Source: Henriciella sp. AS95 (GTDB lineage: Bacteria; Pseudomonadota; Alphaproteobacteria; Caulobacterales; Hyphomonadaceae). From it: 64,000 nucleotides of DNA. The notes under the pieces are model-generated. The model was not told the origin of the DNA and made no database searches. It saw only the letters and a list, made by a program, of their open reading frames with translations. Shown one piece after another: positions 2,726 to 4,531 of the stretch. The first letter of the stretch is position 1. Each line of letters begins with the position of its first letter. The stretch spans positions 248,001 to 312,000 of the forward strand of contig NZ_JBBMQM010000001.1 of NCBI RefSeq assembly GCF_038900055.1, read 5' to 3'. A program made the translations under genes and the position numbers.

Positions 2726-4531
2726 ATGAATTTCTGGATTTACGAAAATTTTGGCAACAAGCGCGCTCGCATCCACACCGCCAACTGCCGCTATTGCAAT
2801 AATGGTCAGGGCGTCGGCGGCGACCAGACCAATGATGACGACAAGTGGCACGGCCCGTTCGACACGTTCGCCGCTGCCGAAAAGAAAGCAAAGTCGCTGA
2901 AGCAGAAAGACACCCGCGCCTGCGGCGTGTGCAAGCCTGCAGAAGCCGACGCCAAGGGCGGCGTGAAGATTTCCGACGTGGCGCCCGCCATCGCAGCCGC
3001 GTCTGCAACCGAATCTGCGCCTAAGCCGGCGGCCACCTCAAAGCCGGCTCCGACACCAAAAAAGGCTTCCAAGCCAAAACCTACATCCGCTCCCAAGGAG
3101 ACGCCTCGCATGAGCAGCAAGACCGCAACCGGCAAGATCGCACAGGTGATCGGTGCCGTCGTCGACGTCCAGTTCGAAAGCAACCTGCCCGACATCCTGA
3201 ACGCCCTGGAAACCGACAATAACGGGAACCGCCTGGTTCTTGAGGTTGCCCAGCACCTCGGCGAGAACACCGTTCGCACGATCGCCATGGACTCCACTGA
3301 AGGCCTCGTTCGCGGCCACCCGGTGACCGACCTTGGTGAGCCGATCCAGGTGCCAGTCGGCCCGGAAACGCTCGGTCGTATCATGAACGTCATCGGTGAG
3401 CCGATTGATGAGCGCGGCCCGGTGAACACCGCCAAGCGCGCCCCGATCCACGCTCCGGCGCCTGCATTTGTTGACCAGTCTACCGAAGCCGAGATCCTCG
3501 TCACCGGTATCAAGGTTATCGACCTGCTCTGCCCTTACGCAAAAGGCGGCAAGATCGGCCTGTTCGGCGGCGCCGGTGTTGGCAAGACGGTTCTCATTCA
3601 GGAACTGATCAACAACATCGCGAAACTGTTCGGTGGTTACTCGGTCTTCGCCGGTGTCGGCGAGCGGACCCGCGAAGGTAACGACCTCTATTACGAAATG
3701 ATCGAGTCGAACGTGATCGATCTCGAAGGCGACAGCCGCGTGGCGCTGGTCTATGGCCAGATGAACGAGCCTCCGGGCGCGCGTGCCCGCGTTGCTTTGA
3801 CCGGTCTCGCACAGGCAGAATATTTCCGCGATGAAGAAGGCAAGGACGTGCTGTTCTTCGTCGACAACATCTTCCGCTTCACCCAGGCCGGCGCCGAAGT
3901 GTCCGCCCTTCTCGGCCGTATCCCGTCCGCTGTGGGCTACCAGCCAACGCTGGCCACCGATATGGGTCAGCTGCAGGAGCGGATTACCTCCACGAACAAG
4001 GGCTCGATTACCTCGATCCAGGCCGTCTACGTTCCAGCTGACGACCTCACCGACCCGGCGCCAGCCACCTCGTTTGCTCACCTTGACGCAACGACGGTTC
4101 TGAACCGCGCCATCTCGGAAAAAGGCATCTATCCGGCTGTGGATCCGCTCGACAGCTCCTCGCGTATCCTTGACCCGATGGTTGTCGGTGAAGAGCACTA
4201 TGAAGTCGCCCGCGGGGTTCAGGAAATCCTGCAGCGCTACAAGGAGCTTCAGGACATCATCGCCATCCTCGGCATGGACGAACTGTCCGAAGACGACAAA
4301 ATGGTCGTTGCCCGGGCCCGTAAGGTCGAGCGCTTCCTGTCCCAGCCGTTCGACGTGGCCGAAGTCTTCACCGGTTCGCCAGGCGAGCAGGTCAAGCTCG
4401 AAGACACGATCAAGGGCTTCAAAGGCCTCATCGCCGGTGAGTATGACCACCTTCCAGAGCAGGCCTTCTACATGGTCGGCAATATGGACCAGGTGATGAA
4501 GAAAGCCGAAAAGATGATGGAAGACGCGTAG
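2726..4531 (+). CDS. atpD: ATP synthase F1 subunit beta with N-terminal Cys-rich domain fusion (long form)
   Basis: Catalytic subunit of F1; reading from 2726 gives 601 residues, while the family is usually 460-520. Residues 1-71 form an extra domain with H17, C21-X2-C24, a 'WHGPF' strand at 41-45 and C66-X2-C69, which looks like a zinc-ribbon or rubredoxin-like knuckle. Residues 72-128 are an A/P/K-rich linker of the kind some Caulobacterales AtpD proteins carry. The normal beta subunit follows from Met129, with the P-loop GGAGVGKT (~281-288), '[11 protein letters not shown]' and '[14 protein letters not shown]'. The start at 2726 has AGGAG seven bases upstream, overlapping the atpG stop. 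A second start at 3110 with AAGGAG gives a normal 473-residue subunit, so two forms may be made. The fusion is read directly; metal binding is inferred. Confidence 0.95.
3095..3112 (+). promoter_or_regulatory. Internal Shine-Dalgarno and ATG inside atpD (canonical beta start)
   Basis: AAGGAG at 3095-3100 sits nine bases before an in-frame ATG at 3110 that opens '[18 protein letters not shown]', the usual start of bacterial AtpD. The site resembles the one at the long-form start (AGGAGACGC followed by ATGA in both). It could be the ancestral translation start retained after fusion, allowing a short beta form. Actual use cannot be decided from sequence. Confidence 0.6.

Follow-up and report, generated by a model that had tools for sequence, protein, structure and literature searches.

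The beta subunit of ATP synthase is among the most conserved proteins, and its N-termini lie on the face of F1 farthest from the membrane, known as the crown. In a 64,000-nucleotide stretch of Henriciella sp. AS95 (contig NZ_JBBMQM010000001.1, positions 248,001 to 312,000; hereafter the window), the atpD gene encodes a beta subunit with a cysteine-rich N-terminal domain on a linker, and the usual atpD start is retained inside the frame. The beta subunit of the Mycoplasma mobile G1-ATPase (MMOB1670), part of a gliding motor, has an N-terminal domain and a linker along the crown that bring in phosphoglycerate kinase, as described in the sections of PMC11864180 drawn on here. The two proteins are alike in being F1-type beta subunits with an N-terminal domain on a linker. 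The Mycoplasma domain is helical and belongs to a second, specialised ATPase, whereas the domain in the window is carried by the sole ATP synthase beta subunit, which retains an internal start. Long and short products of one gene are also described, in the portions of the two papers used here, for AerR of Rhodobacter capsulatus, a proven two-start gene with internal initiation at a CTG (PMC6199135), and for SpaO of Salmonella, again by internal initiation (PMC13059759). These proteins differ from AtpD in role, AerR being a regulator and SpaO a secretion scaffold, and the internal start of atpD, unlike that of AerR, is an ATG with a perfect ribosome site common to unfused relatives. Among the titles and abstract openings listed for open-licence papers, none describes a cysteine-rich N-terminal domain of AtpD, and the terms crown, N-terminal extension, Hyphomonas, Henriciella and zinc have no occurrence in PMC9317440.

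The atpD frame of the window opens at the ATG at position 2726, ten bases past the atpG stop, and runs to position 4531 (601 residues) without a stop. An initial annotation of this DNA had described a cysteine domain fused to AtpD. This fusion is confirmed, with H17, C21, C24, C66 and C69 correctly placed. The translated frame matches TIGR01039, the canonical F1 beta family, over nearly the whole profile (841.6 bits against a cutoff of 462.85, E 1.6e-253; residues 135–597 aligned with positions 2–462 of 462), which identifies a full-length F1 beta subunit. It differs from the canonical subunit by 128 extra residues, which include the cysteine-rich domain, and by a second start upstream. The sequence GGAGVGKT at residues 281–288, which we take to be the P-loop, is invariant at seven of eight positions in 31 rows, and A283 is present in at least 90%. 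Against NF045858, which represents the MMOB1670-type G1-beta, the window AtpD scores 501.5 bits and falls short of the cutoff of 850. The beta subunit is present as a single copy in its own genome at E<=1e-120, and a second atpD is rejected at that threshold. Three other genomes (G010, G023 and G032) contain, besides the main AtpD, a second F1 beta that is 50–51% identical and possibly belongs to an alternative F-type ATPase.

The fusion is found in Henriciella, Ponticaulis, some Hyphomonas and relatives, that is, in part of the Hyphomonadaceae. In the comparison of AtpD N-termini across this family, which the initial annotation had proposed, 40 of 105 genomes, from 5 of 10 genera, carry a match to the extension, none of them with a stop inside it. 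The open frame is 580–684 residues long in 39 of these matches and 139 residues long in G038, where a contig edge ends the fusion just past the linker. In a separate search of 101 genomes (own genome included), 41 match the extension at E<=0.01 and 37 of these are AtpD fusions, G038 among them. The other four matches (G046, G061, G073 and G085) lie outside atpD; two are transposase-like carriers of the module and two are at chance level. Within the same genus, 25 of 29 genomes match (own genome included), or 25 of 27 once G011 and G015, which have no AtpD at E<=1e-120, are set aside. In a collection of named genomes all 35 loci found are fusions, one of them (L104) ended by a contig edge, in a scan whose patterns were built from fused sequences and are biased toward fusions. 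Among the named matches H. pelagia ranks first, with 96% identity in the domain, and Henriciella accounts for many of the others. In the genus that holds the H. johnsonii fusion, three genomes match and 20 others do not; six of the latter were read and all are unfused. In L029/L101, what looks like an insert in the AtpD core is a stretch of Ns whose flank is repeated, and the longer frame length of these loci is unreliable.

A frameshift, a sequencing error or a mis-called start would explain the long frame as an artefact, and the initial annotation had allowed for an error concealing a stop between positions 2726 and 3109. No stop occurs in this interval in any of the 40 family genomes, and the frame is open in all of these separate assemblies. 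Conservation in the 101-genome, named-collection and family searches rules out a chance open frame or a sequencing error, and the probability left to an artefact of any of these kinds is negligible. The fusion is real, conserved and selected; its function remains predicted.

The residue encoded by the internal ATG, M129, is invariant in 31 of 31 rows (the window and 30 of 34 full-length loci). The AAGGAG that had been reported before this ATG is present, and the same six bases are found in 33 of 40 fused genes; the remaining seven, all from Ponticaulis (7/7), have AAGGGG. The exact leader GCTCCNAAGGAGACG stands before the sole start in 6 of 20 unfused relatives, and close variants of it are found in four. 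The six are G007, G008, G036, G032, G041 and G052, where the ATG is preceded by exactly GCTCC[ACT]AAGGAGACG; the four with a near variant are G029, G047, G055 and G058, and the other ten, more distant unfused loci are without the leader. In fused genes this leader is part of the reading frame, and the last codons of the linker (APKETPR) correspond in frame to the atpD leader of unfused relatives. Because these relatives share the leader before their only start, the internal ATG is most simply read as the old atpD start.

The internal ribosome site is kept at silent positions in the fused genes. In the 33 genes with AAGGAG, a group selected for having that sequence, lysine is encoded by AAG in 33 of 33 and glutamate by GAG in 33 of 33. 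In the linker upstream of the site, counted over 40 genes, AAA and AAG occur 148 and 135 times and GAA and GAG 44 and 17 times. On the AtpD core tree, all six bases of AAGGAG show 0 parsimony changes over 32 fused rows, which are the AAGGAG rows standing in the tree (L053 lacks the core and is omitted). At the third base of 35 other protein-invariant lysine and glutamate codons (two in the domain and 33 in the core), there are 1–9 changes each, with a mean of about 5.4. The fused rows are related and their raw counts are non-independent, a concern that the tree-based count answers for the most part.

Both starts have a conserved ribosome site, the first being shorter and more variable. Upstream of the internal ATG, all 40 fused genes have a perfect Shine-Dalgarno (SD) match of at least 5 nt. 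A match of this length is found at the first ATG in 17 of 40 genes and at none of 344 control codons (in-frame methionine codons of the AtpD core). Matches of at least 4 nt precede the first ATG in 38 of 40 genes and the control codons in 8 of 344. The mean SD pairing energy is -8.55 at the first start, -8.55 at the internal start and -2.68 at the control codons, and the mean 60-nt folding energies are -12.75, -10.89 and -16.94, respectively.

These measures bear on two alternatives. In one, the cell makes the long form alone, the internal AAGGAG persists as a historical remnant, and any short beta arises by proteolysis in the linker, whose A/P/K-rich composition would make it easily cleaved; the match at the first start in 38 of 40 genes is consistent with this. 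The lack of silent change at the internal site, set against the 1–9 changes at comparable codons and despite the faster-evolving linker around it, argues in the opposite direction, as does the AAGGGG of Ponticaulis, which differs yet keeps a perfect match of at least 5 nt. Production of the long form alone is rated as unlikely. In the other, the internal start yields nearly all of the beta subunit, and the upstream frame is a leader, translated mainly to keep atpD coupled with atpG and to fix the ratio of the subunits, its peptide being of little importance in itself. Here the longer internal SD match (at least 6 nt in 33 of 40 genes versus 2 of 40 at the first start), the weaker mean structure at the internal start and the absence of the module from several lineages within the clade are favourable. 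The window departs from this mean, with weaker structure at the first start than at the internal one (-7.9 versus -9.7), and the internal site pairs more strongly than the first in just 20 of 39 genes. The leader explanation is unlikely. Since the normal start is still present and is conserved at silent positions, two beta forms are the best reading, and the gene probably yields long as well as short beta. The initial annotation had proposed two forms; the retained start stands and has gained silent conservation, and the production of both forms is a prediction from evolutionary evidence.

The domain comprises residues 1–71 and carries the motif H17-X3-C21-X2-C24 together with C66-X2-C69. Eight residues (W4, H17, C21, C24, W41, A51, C66 and C69) do not vary in any of 26 rows, of which 24 are fused and two come from transposase-like proteins, and all eight but W4 are kept in 13 rows that include three free-standing copies. 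The two conserved CxxC knuckles expected of a zinc ribbon or zinc knuckle are present in all 26 rows (C21 and C24, C66 and C69). Some module copies outside AtpD have one cysteine missing or a C-X-C spacing. Over 19 pairs picked by hand, the median dN/dS is 0.078 in the domain (17 of 19 pairs, two saturated pairs dropped), 0.253 in the linker (19 pairs; range 0.073–1.173, with one pair at 1.17) and 0.048 in the AtpD core (18 pairs). The domain is under purifying selection at the amino-acid level. A conserved domain protein with invariant candidate ligands, and with relatives that are separate proteins, would be needless for a pure leader. The AlphaFold2 model of the domain (pLDDT 86.6, pTM 0.74) has predicted strands at residues 3–8, 13–18, 39–45 and 62–65 and a helix at 48–57.

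The fused domain matches no family over cutoff in Pfam or NCBIfam and none below E 0.05 in PHROGs, and a sequence search of solved structures gives 0 matches at E<=10. Weak similarity to the Pfam family DUF6233 (PF19746), over the part with the second CxxC, is seen at E<=1 in 23 of 26 members, the strongest at E 8.1e-6. The DUF6233 scores shown are below the gathering score of 27.6 bits, at 16.7 bits for the window domain and 21.0 for the best of 10 rescored members, a set of values that does not include the member with E 8.1e-6. The best explanation is a small zinc-knuckle-type domain in which the histidine and cysteines are putative metal ligands.

Stand-alone homologues of residues 1–71, for which the initial annotation had recommended a search, exist as proteins of about 70 residues; that of G142 has 71 residues and is 45% identical to the window domain. 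These proteins have a similar length and ligand pattern, and differ in being unfused to atpD, scattered over the Alphaproteobacteria and without a family over cutoff. The module is also present at the C-terminus of transposase-like (IS1-like) and UvrC/GIY-YIG-like proteins, whose family matches are weak and far below cutoff (IS1, E 0.00096 and 0.0068; UvrC, E 0.046 and 0.21). L171 (4467–5168) and L172 (4813–5514) encode 233-residue GIY-YIG-like proteins that end in the same cysteine module. In the own genome there are no further copies at E<=10, and among the neighbouring open reading frames (ORFs) listed, no shared partner beside the module copies is seen by eye. A phage or viral origin of the module was considered and rejected, with no phage match at E<=0.1 and four pattern matches in viral contigs, none of which was confirmed.

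Among 41 fused loci, 40 of them distinct, the linker varies between 32 and 75 residues, with 19 different lengths, and is always in frame. Its net charge has a median of +5. This charge, together with the +4 of the window domain and +5 of the window linker, is compatible with an alternative in which ATP synthase is positioned in the cell by its module and basic linker, through binding to nucleic acid or a membrane; such a role would not conflict with two starts. The C-terminal module on the IS1-like and UvrC/GIY-YIG-like proteins points the same way, within the limits of their below-cutoff matches, as do basic A/P/K tails on module-free beta subunits in other Caulobacterales (6 loci). Over 40 genes, however, the net charge of the domain ranges from -4 to +4 and is mostly 0 or below, and the binding is purely predicted, leaving this alternative with a low probability. 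The unfused AtpD of L054, L055, L056, L061, L062 and L068, all from other Caulobacterales, have their own A/P/K-rich N-terminal tails and no cysteine domain.

Table 1. Features of the extended atpD gene and its upstream neighbour in the window.
Feature	Position	Strand	Description or basis
atpG (gamma subunit)	1831..2715	+	294-aa ORF, directly 5' of atpD
First-start Shine-Dalgarno AGGAG	2714..2718	+	overlaps atpG stop codon (2713-2715); sequence
N-terminal H-X3-C-X2-C ... C-X2-C domain, 71 residues	2726..2938	+	translation, alignment, dN/dS, AlphaFold2
A/P/K/T/S-rich linker, 57 residues (72-128), net charge +5	2939..3109	+	translation
Internal Shine-Dalgarno AAGGAG	3095..3100	+	9 nt 5' of internal ATG
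Internal ATG, usual atpD start, residue 129 of long form	3110..3112	+	M129 alignment, SD scan
F1 ATP synthase beta subunit proper, 473 aa	3110..4531	+	TIGR01039 match

The features of the locus are collected in Table 1. We take the products of the genes upstream to be those of atpA and atpG, in the operon order atpA, atpG, atpD; for atpG this is a reading of the ORF, with no family search run on its product. Between atpD and the likely atpC, positions 4610–5470 encode a 286-residue protein with a start that, by eye, resembles a signal peptide; it has no Pfam match at E<=0.1.

The AtpD core tree contains 59 rows, 39 of them fused. Mapping the fused or unfused state onto it takes 7 changes, and at least 4 are required by branches with good support. 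We read this as one old gain followed by several losses. Repeated transfer of the module could account for the same distribution, and the domain tree has too few columns to separate descent from transfer. Unfused relatives within the clade retain the AAGGAG site as their sole one. In the unfused G008, which adjoins the fused G003, an ATG lies directly at the atpG stop and opens a 70-base gap whose end is an intact ribosome site; this ATG looks like a relic. The unfused L031/L146 (G007, same genus) has a gap of 183 bases between atpG and atpD, which begins with the SD-like AGGAATTGAAATG and a short frame. This frame has no module match above chance, and the gap is perhaps the scar of a lost module.

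In L017 and L018 (Ponticaulis koreensis and a relative), the AtpD core shares 94% DNA identity with that of L029. Their domain DNA reaches about 68% identity at most with five other Ponticaulis rows, and 78–79% with the best of nine Henriciella rows. The domain alone has apparently been swapped between genera as a cassette. The initial annotation had also noted that the domain looks like a free-standing small protein that lost its stop. A separate gene that ran into atpD agrees with the end of the linker, which matches the unfused leader, and the loss of a stop would be the presumed step. No stand-alone copy of the module is seen beside an atpD.

A single scheme would accommodate these results, and we give it a probability of roughly 60%. 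A zinc-knuckle-type module would have been captured between atpG and atpD in the ancestor of part of the Hyphomonadaceae, its frame continuing across the former ribosome site of atpD and, without a shift, into the gene itself. One message would then have two working starts, with the ATG at 2726 giving a long beta of 601 residues and the ATG at 3110 the ordinary beta of 473 residues. With three beta subunits per F1 ring, each F1 would carry zero to three modules. On its flexible linker at the crown, the module would act as a tethered docking domain, either bringing in a partner or responding to metal or redox state, and the short beta would keep the enzyme working. Within this scheme, we infer the production of both proteins, the metal binding, the history and the docking role. 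Docking is the best guess, favoured by analogy with the Mycoplasma mobile G1-beta, and it is perhaps metal- or redox-dependent, as the invariant histidine and cysteine set suggests. Two observations weigh against the scheme: 13 of 111 invariant twofold core codons, none of them lysine or glutamate, likewise show no change, and the unfused lineages within the clade speak against a vital role for the module. Replacement of the zeta inhibitor by the module is ruled out, since all 61 genomes searched, whether fused or unfused, have PF07345.

A more far-reaching form of the scheme is possible but doubtful. The catalytic ring would be a controlled mixture, in which the ratio of the two starts sets how many modules, from none to three, stand on the crown, so as to dock a partner or adjust the enzyme to metal or redox conditions. 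The module would be an exchangeable cassette, swapped between genera as in P. koreensis and kept or dropped in close species, with short beta always available.

In the libraries searched, no family name above cutoff was obtained for the module family, which includes free small proteins as well as transposase-like and nuclease-like carriers. For the fused lineages, unfused close relatives such as G008 beside the fused G003 are ready-made controls. A lineage that carries a cysteine-rich module on its sole catalytic beta subunit, together with a guarded start for the plain form, is a natural system for the study of how F1 tolerates, uses and mixes extra parts.
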